From contig NZ_JAEKGC010000013.1 in NCBI RefSeq assembly GCF_016405885.1, positions 62,001 to 126,000 of the forward strand: a stretch of DNA of 64,000 bases, written 5' to 3'. The position numbers and the translations under genes were made by a program. The notes under the pieces are model-generated. The model was not told the origin of the DNA. It did not search any database and was given only the letters and a program-made list of their open reading frames with translations. This document shows positions 38,352 to 46,263 of the stretch, one piece after another. Source of the DNA: Arthrobacter sp. MSA 4-2. Lineage in GTDB: Bacteria > Actinomycetota > Actinomycetes > Actinomycetales > Micrococcaceae. Every line of letters begins with the position of its first letter. Position 1 is the stretch's first letter.

Positions 38352-39329
38352 TCACCCGGGCAGTGCGGGGGCGATCAGCAGCAGGGGAGGGAACACCAGC
38401 AGCAGACCGGCCGAGCCCAGGGCCACGGCGCGCTGCAGGGCCGTCAGGGGCCGCAGGGGGGTCAGCAGCCGGCGCAGGCGCTGGACCGAGGTGCTCCAGT
38501 CCTCGGCCATGGTTCCGCGGTCCGGTGCCGGCAGCTCCAGCCGTGTCTCCGCCGACGGGGCGGTGTCAGCCACGGCCGGTGACCCGGCGGCGACGATCGC
38601 GATGGCCCGCACGAGGGTGCCTTCGTCGACGTGCTTGAGGGCCTGGTCGTCGGCCAGCATCTCGATCAGCTCCGTCACCGCAACCTGTGCCAGCTGCGAG
38701 GTGGGCAGCCAGGGCAGGGCGGAACGCCAGGCGGCGAACGCCCACAGGAGCAGGTGGTGGCGCTGCTGGAGGTGGGCATTTTCGTGGGTCAGGACGGCGT
38801 TGAGTTCCTCCTGGCTGAGCATTTCAAGGAGTCCGTCGGACAGGACGGTCACCGAGCGAGCCCCCCCGGGCAGGCAGTAGGCAACGGGCGTGGGGTGGTT
38901 GATCACGAGGGTCGCGGGGGAGTCCTTCACCGGCGAACTGAGCAACCGCAACATGCTGCGGTGGCGCCGGCGCTGGCGCTGGATACGAATGAAGGTCAGC
39001 ATCAGCGTGAAGACCAGGTGGACGCCCAACAGGGTCGCCGCGCTCAGAGCAAAGACGTGGATGATTCCGAGGGTCTCGGCCGGCTTCTGCTCCATCAGTA
39101 CGTTCCACAGTCCGATAGAGGCCGACACGAGATTATCGCCCAGCGGGGCCAGGCCCCAGACGAGCATGGCCCCGATCATCGAGAGCCCGCCGGCGAGGGC
39201 GATCGACTGCCACAGGACCATGGCCGTGAAGGGGGAGCGCGCGGGCCAGCGGGCGCGGGAGAGCGCAATGGGCGCCGGCCACGCGAGGAACACCGCGAGG
39301 GCCGCCAGAAAGTATGACGCCCAGAGCAC
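38352..39329 (-). CDS. M56 family membrane metalloprotease (BlaR1/MecR1-like, no sensor domain)
   Basis: This is an integral-membrane zinc protease. In BlaR1 systems the M56 protease responds to a signal and leads to cleavage of BlaI. The 325-residue protein has four or so membrane helices (including ALAVFLAWPAPIAL and LSAATLLGVHLVFTLML). The zinc motif is HENAH at residues 182-186 in a cytosolic loop. There is no C-terminal penicillin-binding domain, so beta-lactam sensing is not expected. It follows blaI with a 6-bp gap and is clearly co-transcribed. Rv1845c of M. tuberculosis is comparable. The signal is unknown; linkage to cytochrome bd suggests redox or respiratory stress. Confidence 0.88.
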   Translation of the reverse strand: MLWASYFLAALAVFLAWPAPIALSRARWPARSPFTAMVLWQSIALAGGLSMIGAMLVWGLAPLGDNLVSASIGLWNVLMEQKPAETLGIIHVFALSAATLLGVHLVFTLMLTFIRIQRQRRRHRSMLRLLSSPVKDSPATLVINHPTPVAYCLPGGARSVTVLSDGLLEMLSQEELNAVLTHENAHLQQRHHLLLWAFAAWRSALPWLPTSQLAQVAVTELIEMLADDQALKHVDEGTLVRAIAIVAAGSPAVADTAPSAETRLELPAPDRGTMAEDWSTSVQRLRRLLTPLRPLTALQRAVALGSAGLLLVFPPLLLIAPALPG

Positions 39330-39335
39330 TGGGGC

Positions 39336-39704
39336 CTAGGCGCCGAGCAGCCTGCGCAGGGTCTGCGCCTCCGACTCCGAGACGCTGCCGATGAAACGCG
39401 CAAGCACCGCCTCGCGGTCGGGCGCCTTGACGAACACTTCGTGCATCAGCTCGGCGGTGTGGTCGGCGCGGCTGGTGACCGCCTTGTAGCGATGGGGCCG
39501 GCTGTCGCGCTCGCGCTGCACCAGGCCCTTCTTCTCCAGACGGGACAAAACGGTCAGCACAGTGGTCACGGCGAGCTCCCGCCCGGTCTCGGCGCCGGCC
39601 GGGACGACGGCGATCGAATCGCGCAGCTCGTTGGCCGTGAGTGCCCCGGGTGTTGACCACAGCAGGTCCATCACTGTGCGTTCGAGGTCTCCGAGGGTTG
39701 CCAT
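39336..39704 (-). CDS. blaI: BlaI/MecI/CopY family repressor
   Basis: This winged-helix repressor binds DNA as a dimer and is inactivated when its M56 partner triggers cleavage. The ATG at 39704 (122 aa) is chosen from AAGGA 5 nt upstream and from the family start (MATLGDLERTVMDLLWSTPG). The recognition region reads VTTVLTVLSRLEKKGLVQRERDSRPHRYKA, followed by the dimerisation helices. It is divergent from cydA, and three TTCTAC-N5-GTAGAA palindromes lie in the shared 219-bp region. That makes it the likely regulator of both its own operon and cydAB-cydDC. Confidence 0.9.
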   Translation of the reverse strand: MATLGDLERTVMDLLWSTPGALTANELRDSIAVVPAGAETGRELAVTTVLTVLSRLEKKGLVQRERDSRPHRYKAVTSRADHTAELMHEVFVKAPDREAVLARFIGSVSESEAQTLRRLLGA

Positions 39705-39812
39705 GTTCTTCCTTCTGCGAAATCCGATGATGCATTTGGTGCCACGCCTGCCGATGGGGCAGGCGCAGGATACAGCTCTACGACTTAAAGGATACCGCGT
39801 TTTGCCGCTGGT

Positions 39813-39884
39813 TTCTACGTCACGTAGAAGCCTCATAAAATTTGTTCTACGCTATGTAGAAGAAGATTTCTACACGACGTAGAA
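39813..39884. promoter_or_regulatory. Three BlaI-type operators between blaI and cydA
   Basis: Three perfect dyads of TTCTAC-N5-GTAGAA occur at 39813-39829, 39845-39861 and 39868-39884, with spacers GTCAC, GCTAT and ACGAC. They resemble the TACA/TGTA-centred operators of BlaI proteins. A TAAAAT -10-like hexamer at 39836-39841 lies between operators 1 and 2 on the cydA strand; operator 1 would overlap its -35. Binding by BlaI would repress cydA and probably blaI as well. Confidence 0.85.
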
Positions 39885-39923
39885 CAACGGCCGCGCAGCC
39901 CGCGGTGTACGCGAAAGGGTTTC

Positions 39924-41504
39924 ATGGAAGCCTTGGAAATTGCCCGGTGGCAATTCGGCATCACCACCGTCTACCACTTCCTGATGGTCCCGCTGACCAT
40001 CGGCCTCGGCCTGCTGGTGGCGGTGATGCAAACCCTTTGGTACCGCACGGGCGAGGCATCGTACCTGCGGATGACGCGCTTCTGGGGCAAGCTCTTCCTG
40101 ATCAACTTCATCATGGGCGTGGCGACCGGGCTGGTGCAGGAGTTCCAGTTCGGCCTGGCGTGGAGCGAATACAGCCGGTTCGTCGGTGACATCTTCGGCG
40201 CACCCCTGGCGCTTGAGGCACTGCTGGCCTTCTTCGTGGAGTCGACCTTCCTCGGCCTCTGGATCTTCGGGTGGCAGCGACTGCCAAAGCTGGTCCACCT
40301 GCTCTGCCTGTGGGCCGCGGTGCTCGCCTCGGTGCTCTCCGCCTACTTCATCCTCGTGGCCAACTCCTGGATGCAGCACCCGGTCGGGTACGAGGTTGTC
40401 GACGGCCGGCCGGTCCTGAACGACATTTGGGCGGTGCTGACCAACAACACCGCGCTGGTGGCCTTCCCCCATACGGTCTTCGGTGCCCTCGCCGTCGCCG
40501 GGGCGTTCCTGCTCGGCATCAGCTGGTACCACCTCTGGAAGCGCCGCAACGACGGGATTGACACCGTCGACGCGTCCGGCCGGGTCCAGATCGGCGCCGC
40601 GGCCGCTCCGTCGCGCGACGCCACCGACCACCGGGTCTGGCTGCGCTCTGCCCGGCTCGGCGCCGTCGTCGCCATGATCGCCTTCGCCGGCACCGCCGTC
40701 TCCGGCGACCTCCAGGGCAAGCTCATGTTCGATCAGCAGCCCATCAAGATGGCCGCCGCGGAGGCCGCCTGCCACGACGGCACCGGCTTCTCCGTGCTCT
40801 CCGTCGGCAACCTCGGCTCCCAGAGCTGCGACGACATCGTGGCCCTCGTCGAAGTTCCCGGCGTCCTCTCCTTCCTGGCCAACGGCGACTTCACCACCGA
40901 AGTCAAGGGCGTGAACACGCTGGTCCCCGAATACCAGGAGAAGTACGGGACCCACCTGCCCGACAACCCCATCTACGGCGACCGCGCCGGCACCGAGATC
41001 GACTACCTCCCCGTCCTCGAGGTCACCTACTGGGGCTTCCGCATCATGATCGGCTTCGGTGCCATCGCCGCCCTCGCCGCCGGCATCGCCTTCTGGGTGC
41101 TGCGCAAGGGCACCGTCCCCGAGTCCCGGTGGCTCATGCGCCTTGCAGTCTTCGGCATCCTCGCCCCGTTCGGCGCGAACGCCGCCGGCTGGATCTTCAC
41201 CGAGATGGGCCGCCAGCCCTTCGTCGTCGCACCGAACCCCGAGTTCGCCGGCATCGACAGCGTGTTCATGTTCACCGCCGCCGCCGTCTCCCCGGGGGTC
41301 ACCGTGGCCGAACTGCTCACCTCCCTGATAGCCCTCGCCTCGGTGTACGCGGTGCTGCTGGTCATCGAGGTCCGTCTGCTCTTCACCTACGTCCGCGGCG
41401 GAGTGGCCTCGGCCATGCCCGAGCTCGCCCACACCCCGGCGGACCACGACGGCGGGTCCGGGCACCGGGCCGACGACGCCGACGTCCTCTCTTTCGCGTA
41501 CTAA
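39924..41504 (+). CDS. cydA: Cytochrome bd ubiquinol oxidase subunit I
   Basis: CydA is the quinol-oxidising, haem-carrying subunit of the high-affinity terminal oxidase bd in the cytoplasmic membrane. The 526-residue protein starts MEALEIARWQFG with GAAAGGG 4 nt upstream. The conserved haem-ligand His is at position 18 (TTVYHFLMVPL). Other family segments are KLFLINFIMGVATGLVQEFQFG, ANSWMQHPVG and GRQPFVV. The Q-loop is of the short type normal for Actinobacteria. It heads the cydA-cydB-cydDC operon downstream of three BlaI-type operators. Confidence 0.96.
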   Translation: MEALEIARWQFGITTVYHFLMVPLTIGLGLLVAVMQTLWYRTGEASYLRMTRFWGKLFLINFIMGVATGLVQEFQFGLAWSEYSRFVGDIFGAPLALEALLAFFVESTFLGLWIFGWQRLPKLVHLLCLWAAVLASVLSAYFILVANSWMQHPVGYEVVDGRPVLNDIWAVLTNNTALVAFPHTVFGALAVAGAFLLGISWYHLWKRRNDGIDTVDASGRVQIGAAAAPSRDATDHRVWLRSARLGAVVAMIAFAGTAVSGDLQGKLMFDQQPIKMAAAEAACHDGTGFSVLSVGNLGSQSCDDIVALVEVPGVLSFLANGDFTTEVKGVNTLVPEYQEKYGTHLPDNPIYGDRAGTEIDYLPVLEVTYWGFRIMIGFGAIAALAAGIAFWVLRKGTVPESRWLMRLAVFGILAPFGANAAGWIFTEMGRQPFVVAPNPEFAGIDSVFMFTAAAVSPGVTVAELLTSLIALASVYAVLLVIEVRLLFTYVRGGVASAMPELAHTPADHDGGSGHRADDADVLSFAY

Positions 41505-41545: not shown

Positions 41546-42568
41546 ATGTCCGAGGCTCTTCCCACCCTCTGGTTCGTCCTCATCGCCGTCCTCTGGGCCG
41601 GCTACCTCTTCCTCGAAGGCTTCGACCTTGGGGTGGGCATGCTGATGAAGCTCGTCTACCGCACTGACTCCCAGCGCAGGGTGCTGCTGAACACCGTGGG
41701 GCCGGTGTGGGACGGCAACGAGGTGTGGCTGATCACCGCCATCGGCGCCACCTTCGCCGCGTTCCCCGCCTGGTACGCGTCCCTGCTGTCGTCGCTCTAC
41801 CTGCCCTTCACCGCCGTCCTGCTCGGCCTGATCTTCCGGGCAGTGGCCTTCGAGTGGCGGGGCAAGGTCGACAGCCCCGCATGGCGGAACCGTTGGGACT
41901 GGGCCATCGCCCTGGGGTCCCTGACGGCCGCCGCCGGCATCGGCGCGGCGCTGGCCCTGACCACCACCGGCCTGCCGATCAACGCCAACGGCGACCGCGA
42001 GGGCGGCCCGTTCGCCTGGTTCAACGGCTACGCGCTGCTCGGCGCCGCGGCCGTGGTGCTCTTCTGCCTGGTCCACGCCGCCGCGTTCCTGGCGCTGAAG
42101 ACGGAGGGCGGCGTGCGCGGCGCGGCGCTGCGGGTGGTGCGGCGGTGCCTGCCCTTCGCGCTGCTGCCGATGCTCGCCTGGGCGCTCACCGTGCAGGTCC
42201 GCGGCGGAACGATGCTCACCGCCCTGGCGCTGGTCTTTGCCGCCGGCTGCGCCGCCGCGTCCTGGCGCTCGGCGCGCGGGAACCGCGACGGCCGCGCCTT
42301 CGCGGCGCTGGGGGCGGCGATGGTGCTGATGATTGGCTCAATCTTCGCTGCTGCCTTCCCCGTGGTGCTTCCTTCGACCCTGGATCCGCTGTTCGACCTG
42401 ACGGTGGACAGCGCGGCGTCCTCCCCGTACACGCTGGGCCTGATGAGCATTGTGGCGGCGTTCGGGCTGCCGCTCATCCTCGCCTACCAGGGCTGGACCT
42501 ACTGGGTGTTCCGGCGCCGGATCTCCGAGCGGAGCATCCCTGCGGCCCACGCCGTGACCCCACTGTGA
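41546..42568 (+). CDS. cydB: Cytochrome bd ubiquinol oxidase subunit II
   Basis: CydB pairs with CydA in the membrane. The ATG at 41546 follows AAAAAGG by 9 nt and opens with LPTLWFVLIAVLWAGYLFLEGFDLG-type sequence, the family start. The 340 residues form about eight helices, with GPVWDGNEVWL and YLPFTAVLLGLIFR as typical segments. The gene lies 41 bp after cydA and its stop overlaps the GTG start of cydDC (GTGA), so the three are translated as one operon. Confidence 0.96.
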   Translation: MSEALPTLWFVLIAVLWAGYLFLEGFDLGVGMLMKLVYRTDSQRRVLLNTVGPVWDGNEVWLITAIGATFAAFPAWYASLLSSLYLPFTAVLLGLIFRAVAFEWRGKVDSPAWRNRWDWAIALGSLTAAAGIGAALALTTTGLPINANGDREGGPFAWFNGYALLGAAAVVLFCLVHAAAFLALKTEGGVRGAALRVVRRCLPFALLPMLAWALTVQVRGGTMLTALALVFAAGCAAASWRSARGNRDGRAFAALGAAMVLMIGSIFAAAFPVVLPSTLDPLFDLTVDSAASSPYTLGLMSIVAAFGLPLILAYQGWTYWVFRRRISERSIPAAHAVTPL

Positions 42569-45500
42569 GCGCCCCCGGAGTGAACGCCACGGAACGACGC
42601 CGCAGGAGGGGGCCGGAGTCCCCGGCCGGTCCGGTCGGCTCGACGCCTGCGGTGTACCTGCTCGGAGTCCTCGCGGCGGCGAAGGCCGCCGGACTGGTGC
42701 TGGTGGCCTCGGCCCTTGCCGCTGGGATCGCCTCCCTCGCGGACGGTGGGCTCGAACCCGGACCGCTGCTGATCCAGGGTGCCGCCGGCGTCGTGCTGCG
42801 CACCCTGGCCGCCTGGGGGCAGGATGTCACCGCCGCGCGGCTTGTCGTCGGGGTGAAGGAACGGGTGCGGCACGCCGCCCTGGAACGCGTCGTCGGCGAC
42901 GGCGGCAGCGCGGTCCTGCCGGCGGGTACCGGCGGAGAGGCCGGTTCCCGCGCCCCGGAAGCCGCCGGCACGGGTGCGCTGAGTGTGCTGCTGACCCGCG
43001 GCCTCGACGGGCTCGACAAGTACTACACCCAGTACCTGCCCGCGCTGGTCACCTGCGCCGTTGTCCCGCTGCTGGTGGGGGTGAGGATCCTCGCCGCGGA
43101 CTGGATCAGCGCCGTGGTGATCCTGCTGACCGTCCCGCTGGTGCCGGTATTCATGATCCTGATCGGACTCCACACCGAGGAGCGCACCCGGGACGCCGCG
43201 TCCGCCCTCGCGCGGCTGTCGGACCACCTGGTGGAACTGGCCCGGGGTCTGCCGGTGCTCGTGGGCCTGGGCCGTGCGGCGCAGCAGACCCGGGCCCTGG
43301 CAGACATCGCCGACCGCTCCTCGGCGCGCACCATGGCCACACTGCGCACCGCGTTCCTGTCCTCCCTGGCCCTCGAACTCATCAGCACCATCTCGGTGGC
43401 GGTCGTGGCGGTCTTCGCCGGAGTGCGCCTGATCCACGGTGACCTCGGGCTGGAAACCGCTCTCCTCGCCCTCATGCTGGCCCCTGAGTGCTACACGCCC
43501 CTGCGCGAGGTGGGGGCCGCCCACCACGCCAGCGAGGACGGCAGGGAGGCCGGCGGGCGCGTCCGCGCCATCCTAGAGGCTCCGCGGCCCCGGCACGGGG
43601 CGCGGACGGACCGGGACGCCGTCGCGGTCTCCGACCTCACCGCACGCTTCGCGGGGGCCGGCGGCCCGCTGTTCGCCGGGCTCACCTTCAGCCTTGCCGA
43701 GGGGCGCATCACGGCACTGACCGGGCCGAGCGGCAGCGGCAAATCCACCCTGATGGCCCTGCTCGCGGGCACGGCCGCAGTGCCCGGGCTGAAAATCACG
43801 GGCACGTTGTCCGGTGCCGCCCCGGGCTCGGTGGCCTGGGTGCCCCAGCACCCGGAGTTCCTCTCCGACACCGTCGGGGAGGAACTCGCCCTGTACGCCG
43901 GGTTGGCCGCAGGCGACCCGGCGCTCGCCGACGGTCTCGCCGCGGTCGGCGGGCCGGAGCTGCTCGGCCGGCGGACCGGCGAACTGAGCCCCGGTGAGGC
44001 GCGCCGGGTCGCCGTTGCCCGTGCCCTGCTGCGCGCCCGGCACCAGCCCGGGGTGCGCCTGCTGCTGCTCGATGAACCGACTGCCCACGTCGATGCGGCC
44101 TCCACCGAAGCCATCCGCGGCGTCCTGCGCCGGCTCCGTGGAAGCCTCACGGTGCTGCTGATCGCGCACGACGAGCGAACCGCAGGGCTCGCCGATGCCA
44201 CCGTCGTCCTCGGTGGGCCCGCCGCACTGGACGGCGTCCTTTCCGCGGCCGTACCCAACGGTGTGGCCGGGCCCGGTGCGCTGACCGCTGCCGTGGAAGC
44301 GGGCACCTCCGTGGAACTGGCCACTACCGCGCGGCCGGTTGAGTCCGCGCAGCAGGGCGGCACCCGGGCGGGCACGACGGCCGACGACGCCGGCTCCTCC
44401 GGCGCCGACCGTTCCGGCCGTCCCGTCTCCGTCTCCGACCCCGGGCCGTCCGCCGCCCCGGAGGTCCCCGCCGCGGGTCTGCGGGCGGTGCTGGCCCTGG
44501 TCCGGCCGTGGGAGCCGCGGTTCCTCGGCGCCGCCAGCCTCGGCCTGGGCTCCTCCCTGTTCGCCGTCGCCCTGACCGCCGTCTCCGGCTGGCTGATTGT
44601 GCGGGCGGCCGAGCAGCCGCCCATCCTGTACCTGCTCACGGCCATCGTGGGGGTGAGGTTCTTCGGCATCGGACGCTCCCTGCTGCGATACTGCGAACGG
44701 CTCGCCCTGCACCGGGCCGTCTTTGCCCGGGCCGACCGGGTGCGCCTGCGAGTGTGGGAGGGCCTGCTGCACCGGTCCGAAGCCTGGCGGACGCTCGCCC
44801 GCGGCTCCGGCGGCATCGAAAGCCTGGTGGGGGATGTCGACGAACTGCGCGACCTGACTCCCCGAGCGGTCCTGCCGCCCCTGACGGCGCTCCTGACCGG
44901 GGCCGCGGCGATCCTGACCACGGCCCTGCTGCTCCCTGCAGCGCTCGGCTGGCAGTTGGCGGTCACCGCCGCGGCGCTCGTGGCGGCGCCGGCCGCGGCG
45001 GTCGTGGCCGACCGGGCCGCCGGTGCCGCTAACGTGGTGCGGCGGGCCGAATCCCTGGAGCTCACCGCGCGGCTGCTGCGCGCAGCACCGGACCTTGCAG
45101 TGAACGACGCCGCCGGCCGGGCGCTGAGCCGCTGGAAGGCGTTGGACCACAGTGCCGCCCGGGGGCTGCGCCGGGTGGCGTGGGCGGCCGGCACCGGCCA
45201 GGGCCTCGTTGTGCTCGCCTGCACCGCCGGCGCGATCGGCGTGCTGACGGTGTCCGCTGGCGTTCCGGCCGAAACCGCGGCTGTCATCGCCCTGATGCAG
45301 CTCGCGCTGATCGAACCCTTCGGGGCCGGCGCCGCGGCCGTGCAGCACTGGGGGCCGCTGCGCGCCGTTGCCGTTCGGCTCCATCCGGTCCTCGCACCGG
45401 AACCCGACGGGCAGGACGGCCCTGCCCCTTCCGGAGCCCGGGCGCGGCGCTCCGGTGCGGAATCAGCGGCCCGCGGCCGCCGTCGTTCCACCGGAGTCCG

Positions 45501-46263
45501 CCTTGGAGCCGGCGCGCTGGACCCCGGGCAGCGCGCCGCCGCGGGACCCGCCGGACCCATCCGGTCTCTCGCCCTGCAGGACGCGGCGGTCGCGTACGGC
45601 CGTGGCGAACCGGTGGTCTCGGGCGTCTCGCTCACCCTGGAGCCGGGCCGCTGGACGGCGCTGACAGGGCCCTCGGGCAGCGGCAAGTCGACCCTGATCG
45701 GCGCCCTGCTGGGATTCCTGCCCCTGAGGTCTGGAAACCTCTTGGTGAACGGCAGCGGAGCAGCCCCCGGGGATTCGATACTGCGCCGGATCGCCTGGTG
45801 TCCCCAGGAGAGCCACCTGTTCAACTCGACGCTCCGGGCCAACCTGCAGCTCGCACGCAGTGACGGCACCCCCATCTCCGAGGCGGAGCTTATCCGGGTC
45901 CTGCACACCGTCGGCCTCGGCCCCTTCCTCGACGGGCTCGACGAGGGGCTGGACGCGCGGGTCGGTGCGGGCGGCACCCGGCTCAGCGGAGGACAGCGGC
46001 AGCGGCTCGCCGTCGCGCGGGCCCTCCTGACCGATGCCGACGTCCTGCTGCTCGACGAGCCCACCGCGCACCTCGACCCGGCCGGCGCCCGTGACCTCCT
46101 GCGCGACCTGCGCCTGGGGCTGACCGACAAGGCCGTGCTGCTCGTGACGCACGACGCCCACGAGGCGGAGCTGTGCGAGGAGGAGGTGCGGATCGGACGG
46201 CACGCCGGCCGGGATGTGTTCCCCGGCAGGGGTGACCTACGCTGGGCGTATGAGCCCGTCTGA
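42565..46263 (+). CDS. cydDC: Fused CydDC thiol/haem ABC exporter
   Basis: CydDC is an ABC transporter needed to assemble cytochrome bd; it exports cysteine/glutathione-type thiols or handles haem. Here the two half-transporters form one 1232-residue chain, a fusion known in several actinobacteria, so this is not a frameshift. The CydD half has membrane helices at about residues 25-310 and an ATPase with GPSGSGKSTLMALL near 390 and LLLLDEPTAHVD. A Thr/Gly/Ala-rich linker of about 80 residues follows. The CydC half repeats the pattern, with GPSGSGKSTLIGAL near 1035, LSGGQRQRLAVARALL and VLLLDEPTAHLD. The CydD signature is LSPGEARR, a mild variant of LSGGQ. The start codon overlaps cydB and the 3' end overlaps the GNAT gene by 14 bp. 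Confidence 0.94.
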   Translation: MSAPGVNATERRRRRGPESPAGPVGSTPAVYLLGVLAAAKAAGLVLVASALAAGIASLADGGLEPGPLLIQGAAGVVLRTLAAWGQDVTAARLVVGVKERVRHAALERVVGDGGSAVLPAGTGGEAGSRAPEAAGTGALSVLLTRGLDGLDKYYTQYLPALVTCAVVPLLVGVRILAADWISAVVILLTVPLVPVFMILIGLHTEERTRDAASALARLSDHLVELARGLPVLVGLGRAAQQTRALADIADRSSARTMATLRTAFLSSLALELISTISVAVVAVFAGVRLIHGDLGLETALLALMLAPECYTPLREVGAAHHASEDGREAGGRVRAILEAPRPRHGARTDRDAVAVSDLTARFAGAGGPLFAGLTFSLAEGRITALTGPSGSGKSTLMALLAGTAAVPGLKITGTLSGAAPGSVAWVPQHPEFLSDTVGEELALYAGLAAGDPALADGLAAVGGPELLGRRTGELSPGEARRVAVARALLRARHQPGVRLLLLDEPTAHVDAASTEAIRGVLRRLRGSLTVLLIAHDERTAGLADATVVLGGPAALDGVLSAAVPNGVAGPGALTAAVEAGTSVELATTARPVESAQQGGTRAGTTADDAGSSGADRSGRPVSVSDPGPSAAPEVPAAGLRAVLALVRPWEPRFLGAASLGLGSSLFAVALTAVSGWLIVRAAEQPPILYLLTAIVGVRFFGIGRSLLRYCERLALHRAVFARADRVRLRVWEGLLHRSEAWRTLARGSGGIESLVGDVDELRDLTPRAVLPPLTALLTGAAAILTTALLLPAALGWQLAVTAAALVAAPAAAVVADRAAGAANVVRRAESLELTARLLRAAPDLAVNDAAGRALSRWKALDHSAARGLRRVAWAAGTGQGLVVLACTAGAIGVLTVSAGVPAETAAVIALMQLALIEPFGAGAAAVQHWGPLRAVAVRLHPVLAPEPDGQDGPAPSGARARRSGAESAARGRRRSTGVRLGAGALDPGQRAAAGPAGPIRSLALQDAAVAYGRGEPVVSGVSLTLEPGRWTALTGPSGSGKSTLIGALLGFLPLRSGNLLVNGSGAAPGDSILRRIAWCPQESHLFNSTLRANLQLARSDGTPISEAELIRVLHTVGLGPFLDGLDEGLDARVGAGGTRLSGGQRQRLAVARALLTDADVLLLDEPTAHLDPAGARDLLRDLRLGLTDKAVLLVTHDAHEAELCEEEVRIGRHAGRDVFPGRGDLRWAYEPV
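46238..46249 (+). promoter_or_regulatory. Possible leaderless promoter of the GNAT gene
   Basis: TACGCT (46238-46243) is followed by 6 nt and the ATG at 46250. The hexamer lies inside the end of cydDC. The same hexamer and spacing occur before the gene at 50236. Confidence 0.45.

Follow-up and report, generated by a model that had tools for sequence, protein, structure and literature searches.

Known BlaI systems and the Arthrobacter blaI-cyd locus

In Staphylococcus aureus, the operators recognised by BlaI and MecI are of the TACA/TGTA type. In Mycobacterium tuberculosis, BlaI has been connected with respiration: according to a 2017 paper, it binds the promoters of cytochrome bd and of ATP synthase, and BlaR of mycobacteria is devoid of the sensor (PMC5473688), while a 2025 paper presents a gel shift with the Rv1303 promoter, as well as a lowered transcript upon BlaI overexpression in M. 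smegmatis (PMC12565901). In addition, the available excerpts of other papers name the atp genes and sigC as BlaI-controlled and place M. tuberculosis blaI itself under IdeR control. Here we describe a locus from a stretch of 64,000 nucleotides of Arthrobacter sp. MSA 4-2 (hereafter, the window), in which the genes of a BlaI repressor and of a BlaR1-like membrane protease are divergent from the cytochrome bd operon and share with it a gap that contains three TTCTAC-N5-GTAGAA dyads. The comparisons presented below suggest, with a probability that we put at roughly 0.78, that BlaI controls a respiratory regulon through these dyads.

The Arthrobacter pair resembles M. tuberculosis BlaI (Rv1846c) and BlaR (Rv1845c) in having a BlaR partner devoid of an extracellular sensor and in its links to Rv1303-ATP synthase and cytochrome bd, as far as these are covered by the accessible sources. 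A first-pass annotation of the window had drawn this parallel for the ATP synthase genes, and it is closer than stated, since the cytochrome bd promoter is also bound according to the same 2017 text (PMC5473688). The Arthrobacter system differs from that of M. tuberculosis in that its dyads extend to many further genes of respiration, heme and copper, in that blaI and cyd are divergent, and in that nothing resembling blaC was seen among the targets. S. aureus BlaI-BlaR1 and MecI-MecR1 share with the Arthrobacter pair the repressor family, the adjacent HExxH/ExxxD gluzincin membrane protease and the Phe of the cut site, whereas the Arthrobacter protease lacks the penicillin-binding sensor and both the targets and the operator sequence differ. 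Similarly, HrrSA of Corynebacterium glutamicum, Crp of M. smegmatis and SenX3-RegX3 are described in the available excerpts as setting terminal-oxidase or cyd expression, but these are two-component or cAMP regulators while the Arthrobacter system is a repressor and membrane protease pair. Respiratory links of BlaI are thus already known in mycobacteria, in the sources as far as accessible, and the breadth of the regulon is the new part. A literature search, for which most subscription papers were beyond reach, returned no report of a wide regulon or of Micrococcaceae dyads, which is weak evidence of novelty.

Three exact dyads lie between blaI and cydA

The features of the locus, with the gene identities supported by Pfam and NCBIfam, were the following:

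38352..39329, minus strand: BlaR1-like membrane zinc protease (M48/M56 type), 325 amino acids, without a penicillin-binding sensor domain
39336..39704, minus strand: BlaI repressor, 122 amino acids (PF03965, E 1.1e-20; 74.5 bits against a cut-off of 22.6)
39705..39923, no strand: shared divergent promoter region of blaI and cydA, 219 bp, GC content 52% against 70% for the window
39813..39829: dyad 1, TTCTACGTCACGTAGAA, putative blaI-side operator, assigned through cyd-less relatives
39845..39861: dyad 2, TTCTACGCTATGTAGAA, putative cydA-side operator
39868..39884: dyad 3, TTCTACACGACGTAGAA, putative cydA-side operator
39924..41504, plus strand: cydA, cytochrome bd subunit I (PF01654, 1.4e-148)
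41546..42568, plus strand: cydB, cytochrome bd subunit II (PF02322, 3.4e-97; TIGR00203 over cut-off)
42562..46263, start approximate, plus strand: cydDC fusion, thiol reductant ABC exporter (TIGR02857 CydD and TIGR02868 CydC, both over cut-off)

The first-pass annotation had read the blaI-protease pair as divergent from cydA-cydB-cydDC and had placed three perfect dyads in the gap; identities, strands and all three dyad positions were as it described, with no mismatch. The blaI and protease genes, both on the minus strand, are spaced by 6 bp. At E ≤ 0.001, PF03965 and PF05569 each matched once in the genome, which implies that all dyad copies would share one BlaI. The closest solved protein to BlaI by sequence was PDB 2g9w (1.9e-17), which we take to be M. 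tuberculosis Rv1846c, and the BlaI profile matched the solved BlaI/MecI structures 2g9w, 1sd6, 1okr and 1sd4; by these matches, the repressor is a true relative of BlaI.

When up to two mismatches were allowed, these three dyads were the only ones found in the window, against 0.17 expected, and none of 100 shuffles reached three. At the genome scale (3.59 Mb, 35 contigs), the exact pattern occurred seven times, with about 0.013 copies expected from the base composition of the window, while a control with the backwards pattern gave none. Both comparisons indicate that the dyads of the gap did not arise by chance.

Dyads accompany BlaI among relatives

In order to compare relatives, 120 genomes of the family were classified by their BlaI match, taking E ≤ 1e-24 as strong. 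At least two dyads were present in 99 of the 101 genomes with a strong match and in none of the 16 with no match or a weak one; three mid-scoring genomes, which stand outside this contrast, had 0, 1 and 6 dyads. The 11 genomes of the family that lack BlaI had no dyad at all; hemQ was kept in the 11, a near-full cydA in six and a cydA fragment in one. No dyad with up to two mismatches was found around these six cydA genes, and the 18 stretches of BlaI-less genomes examined held two matches with two mismatches, one beside the cydA fragment and the other in a hemQ stretch.

The arrangement of the locus was followed in 80 named loci, the best 80 of 314 relatives, which belong to Arthrobacter, Pseudarthrobacter and kin. 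In every one of them, a protease relative adjoined BlaI and a dyad lay upstream of blaI. Where cydA was divergent (69 loci), there were three exact dyads (61 loci) or two (8 loci), while the 11 loci with no adjacent cydA presented one (10 loci) or two (1 locus). These counts suggest that about two of the dyads probably belong to cydA and the remaining one to blaI; the initial assignment of all three to cydA hence stands for about two of them. In G010 and G011, counted as one case, cydA lies apart from blaI yet carries two dyads, and blaI retains one. In the region from 40 to 400 bp ahead of blaI, the 80 loci contained 211 perfect dyads and five with one to three mismatches, and 92 different spacers occurred among their 213 dyads. 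The half-sites are therefore fixed, while the spacers and most flanks drift.

A tandem dyad pair was detected in 30 of 396 genomes of the order (22 in the same family, six in the family f19 and two in the family f15), with no backwards pair among the rows listed. In f19, the blaI-protease pair was divergent from cydA with tandem dyads in 6/6 loci, and CydA was only 43-45% identical.

Genes preceded by the dyads

The four other exact copies in the MSA 4-2 genome were located in the ctaE/qcrC gap (qcrC, bc1 complex), upstream of hemQ-hemH, upstream of the flavohemoglobin gene and over the start of a gene encoding a 145-amino-acid membrane protein. Copies with one mismatch preceded the ATP synthase operon, sucC, ctaE, resA-ccdA, the gene of a CtaG/CopD protein, an ABC transporter operon ending in ctaA, and ctaB, and the placement of an eighth was unclear. 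The ATP synthase operon starts with a gene of the Cg1360 family, whose dyad, with one mismatch here, is exact in G387. The last gene of the ABC transporter operon, ctaA, corresponds to COX15-CtaA, and CtaA was also downstream in 4/4 ABC loci of other genera. Exact dyads occurred in other genera at five of these promoters (atpI, resA, ctaB, the ABC-ctaA operon and CtaG/CopD).

All 38 genomes of the genus searched contained exact dyads, 3-11 each, which summed to 242 against 9 for the backwards pattern, and every exact dyad was placed in 13 of the 38. A fully sampled set of 18 genomes comprised MSA 4-2, G001-G012 and five genomes from other genera (G107, G264, G387, G439 and G467); two fetched G013 sites were excluded from the promoter count and the cyd site of G264 was taken from a separately fetched locus. 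Promoter labels were assigned by hand, with support for gene identities from Pfam, NCBIfam and PDB. Respiratory, heme, copper-delivery or nitric oxide (NO) detoxification genes were behind 72 of the 95 dyad promoters: hemQ (18), cyd (17), qcrC (13), hmp (6), copper genes (5), ABC-ctaA (4), resA (2), ctaC (2), and ctaB, SURF1, sdhC, hemA/hemE and atpI (one each). The qcrC dyad was the identical 17-mer at 12 of its 13 sites. The dyad was 14-15 bp ahead of the hemQ start in 13 of the 14 rows listed, and 7 bp ahead of the hemoglobin gene in 2/2; such closeness to the gene start fits repression. The earlier proposal that BlaI controls the bd oxidase is consistent with these comparisons, in which the dyads behave as operators at cydA, but cyd would be only one of many targets.

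Several dyads pointed to other genes. The 145-amino-acid membrane protein (own copy L005:5558-5995, C2) had no Pfam or NCBIfam match when the L005 copy was tested, and it or a relative (L005, L040, L057, L211, L227 and L241) carried an exact dyad at or near the start in 6 of the 18 genomes, from four genera, which makes it a candidate new respiratory gene. Exact dyads upstream of microbial rhodopsin genes (Pfam Bac_rhodopsin; L013:3001 and L025:3001) suggest that the respiratory regulon includes a light-driven pump in two Arthrobacter genomes. Group III truncated hemoglobin genes (L045:2556-2993 and L054:2556-2993; PDB 2ig3, E 4.4e-8 for L045) were preceded by an exact dyad about 7 bp before the start. 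A small protein with apparently four transmembrane segments by eye had an exact dyad in two genera (L225:2643-2993 and L230:3049-3402), and no NCBIfam or Pfam match was found for the L230 copy tested. At the metX sites (L011 and L035), the half-sites coincide with the final codons of the gene (Phe-Tyr-x-x-stop), and they were rejected as operators because this is probably a coding coincidence.

The membrane protease and the proposed mechanism

The protease matched Pfam M48 over the cut-off (8.1e-12) and M56 (PF05569) with 3.5e-5 and 23.6 bits against a cut-off of 31; among 25 relatives, M48 matched in all and PF05569, at E ≤ 0.001, in 21. The M56 label of the first-pass annotation thus owes more to architecture and context than to the Pfam score. 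The best match of the protease sequence profile in PDB was an HtpX homologue with E 0.035. Its gluzincin motifs, H182ExxH186 and E223xxxD227, correspond to the HExxH and ExxxD signature reported for BlaR1 in the accessible literature; they were kept in 44/44 rows of a class-wide alignment, in addition to a closer alignment whose rows were selected for HExxH (78 of 79 kept). The protein has four hydrophobic segments and ends after the fourth, with no penicillin-binding domain by Pfam, as the first-pass annotation had noted. Cys152, which flanks the active site, was invariant in the 44 class members and also present where cyd is not adjacent, so it is not specific; it may act as a switch, a testable candidate rather than a result. 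A heme- or quinone-binding role for H91 and H104, in the third hydrophobic segment, was rejected, since these residues were invariant in the 78 close rows but present in only 21/44 and 16/44 class-wide. On the repressor side, BlaI Phe104 was invariant in 24/24 sequences and aligned with the Phe at position P1' where BlaR1 cuts S. aureus BlaI, which is between Asn101 and Phe102 according to the literature.

What the compared sequences show is the dyads, with their invariance, their targets and their loss along with BlaI, as well as the motifs of the protease and the conserved Phe; from these we infer the following mechanism. The dyad TTCTAC-N5-GTAGAA, 17 bp in length, would be bound by a BlaI dimer at the promoter or a short distance ahead of it, and transcription would thereby be blocked. 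The repressed targets would be cydABDC, the blaI-protease operon itself, and genes for the bc1-aa3 branch, for heme and heme A synthesis, for the maturation of cytochrome c, for copper delivery and NO detoxification, and for ATP synthase. The switch is likely to be the adjacent membrane zinc protease, which has the BlaR1 catalytic motifs but lacks a penicillin-binding sensor; upon impairment of respiration, it would cut BlaI before Phe104 and the regulon would be derepressed. We consider this proteolysis probable. The nature of the signal is the least certain step and our proposal is tentative; candidate triggers are an over-reduced quinol pool, a falling proton motive force or the loss of working heme-copper oxidase through NO, cyanide, or copper or heme shortage. 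The range of targets, from the assembly of oxidases through copper, heme and NO defence to ATP synthase, with rhodopsin added in two genomes, suits failing respiration more than low oxygen by itself.

If this reading is correct, the oxidases, heme, copper delivery and ATP synthase are coordinated by a repressor-protease pair that owes its name to penicillin resistance, and what sensorless BlaR proteins detect can be tested directly in a soil bacterium that is harmless and has a readable regulon. Uncharacterised membrane proteins, such as the 145-amino-acid protein, would gain a respiratory context, and the main question would shift to which respiratory distress signal the protease senses. We give even odds to a wider reading, in which the sensorless BlaR-like protease would detect respiratory failure at the membrane and BlaI would act, in Micrococcaceae and related Actinomycetes, as master repressor of the aerobic respiratory chain; beta-lactamase control would then have branched off later from this older, respiratory role.

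Alternative explanations

Several observations weigh against a BlaI respiratory regulon. Binding, expression and cleavage in this organism are deduced from sequence comparison, and a promoter scan of the gap (39705-39923) found no sigma-70-type promoter. Dyads with one mismatch numbered eight in the MSA 4-2 genome and eight in the backwards control; their count was dropped as evidence of enrichment and only their positions were retained, so their respiratory locations argue by function alone. By hand label, 23 of the 95 promoters were non-respiratory: small membrane protein (6), blaI alone (3), rhodopsin (2), group III truncated hemoglobin (2), small four-transmembrane protein (2), metX 3' end (2) and other or unclear (6). 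Two strong-BlaI genomes had just one dyad and one of the three mid-scoring genomes had none, and the strong-BlaI group (n=101) totalled 552 dyads against 46 backwards copies, so that a minority of single sites may be due to chance. Regarding the protease, the score stays below the curated PF05569 cut-off, and the AlphaFold model was poor (pLDDT 64) with no Foldseek match at E ≤ 0.001.

A variant that is compatible with the same operators and regulon takes copper or heme limitation, and not electron flow or proton motive force, as the direct signal. The targets include the CopC, CopD, YcnI and CtaG copper genes, SURF1, ctaA, ctaB, hemA/hemE, hemQ and the copper-free bd oxidase, and the invariant Cys152 lies beside the active site. 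However, hmp, atp, sdh and the genes of group III hemoglobin and rhodopsin, all of them targets, do not serve metal supply, and Cys152 is shared with loci in which cyd is not adjacent; we consider this variant rather unlikely.

An improbable alternative is a classical beta-lactam or cell-wall stress system, whose protease would sense wall damage and whose respiratory genes would respond secondarily. The family names agree with it, as do the accessible descriptions of M. tuberculosis BlaI as a blaC repressor and of the induction of cydAB and blaI-blaR by beta-lactam treatment in M. tuberculosis (PMC5473688). Yet the protease, ending after its fourth hydrophobic segment, has no sensor domain, and no operator-controlled beta-lactamase gene, as expected of a bla beta-lactam resistance operon, was found beside the seven exact dyads or among the four scanned neighbours of the locus (genes of a sigma-70 factor, a gyrase-B-type protein, a GNAT acetyltransferase and a topoisomerase-A-type protein), no whole-genome search having been run. 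Within that scope, the first-pass remark that the locus has no beta-lactamase was borne out.

It is very improbable that BlaI regulates only its own operon and cyd, the other dyads being incidental. The cyd-blaI gap is the richest in dyads, with two or three in 69/69 linked loci, but a dyad was also present at hemQ in 18/18 fully sampled genomes, at qcrC in 13/18, almost always as the same 17-mer, and at hmp in 6/18, while the BlaI-less genomes retained hemQ in 11/11 with no dyad anywhere. That the dyads belong to another regulator, with blaI as just one of its targets, could be argued as long as BlaI binding is itself deduced, but it is hardly credible given that the dyads vanish with BlaI (0 in 11/11 BlaI-less genomes; at least two in 99/101 with a strong match against 0/16 with a weak match or none) and precede blaI in 80/80 named loci.

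More distant loci

Among the class loci fetched with a protease, BlaI was adjacent in 30/30 and cydA was within the stretch in 10/30, which came from the same family (2), f19 (4), f38 (3/3, divergent) and f53 (1/1, downstream on the same strand). No exact or one-mismatch dyad was seen in the loci fetched from f38, f53 and other distant families. By manual reading, eight of the 24 loci that belong to neither f1 nor f19 carried a shorter core, CTAC-N5-GTAG, upstream of blaI. No cydA was seen in the two f15 loci with paired dyads (L144:1501 and L145:1501), where the pair precedes a PepSY_TM gene; in L145, this gene closely follows blaI and the protease gene.

One locus (L077), on a contig filed as Vibrio cholerae 35D, carried three perfect dyads and encoded BlaI, protease and CydA 83%, 69% and 84% identical to those of the window; this record is probably mislabelled or contaminated. 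In the family f22 (L267 and L276), the region upstream of blaI holds the sequence TAGGTTAGCCT, which we take to resemble an iron box. This sequence is in line with the IdeR control published for M. tuberculosis blaI, as described in the available excerpts.
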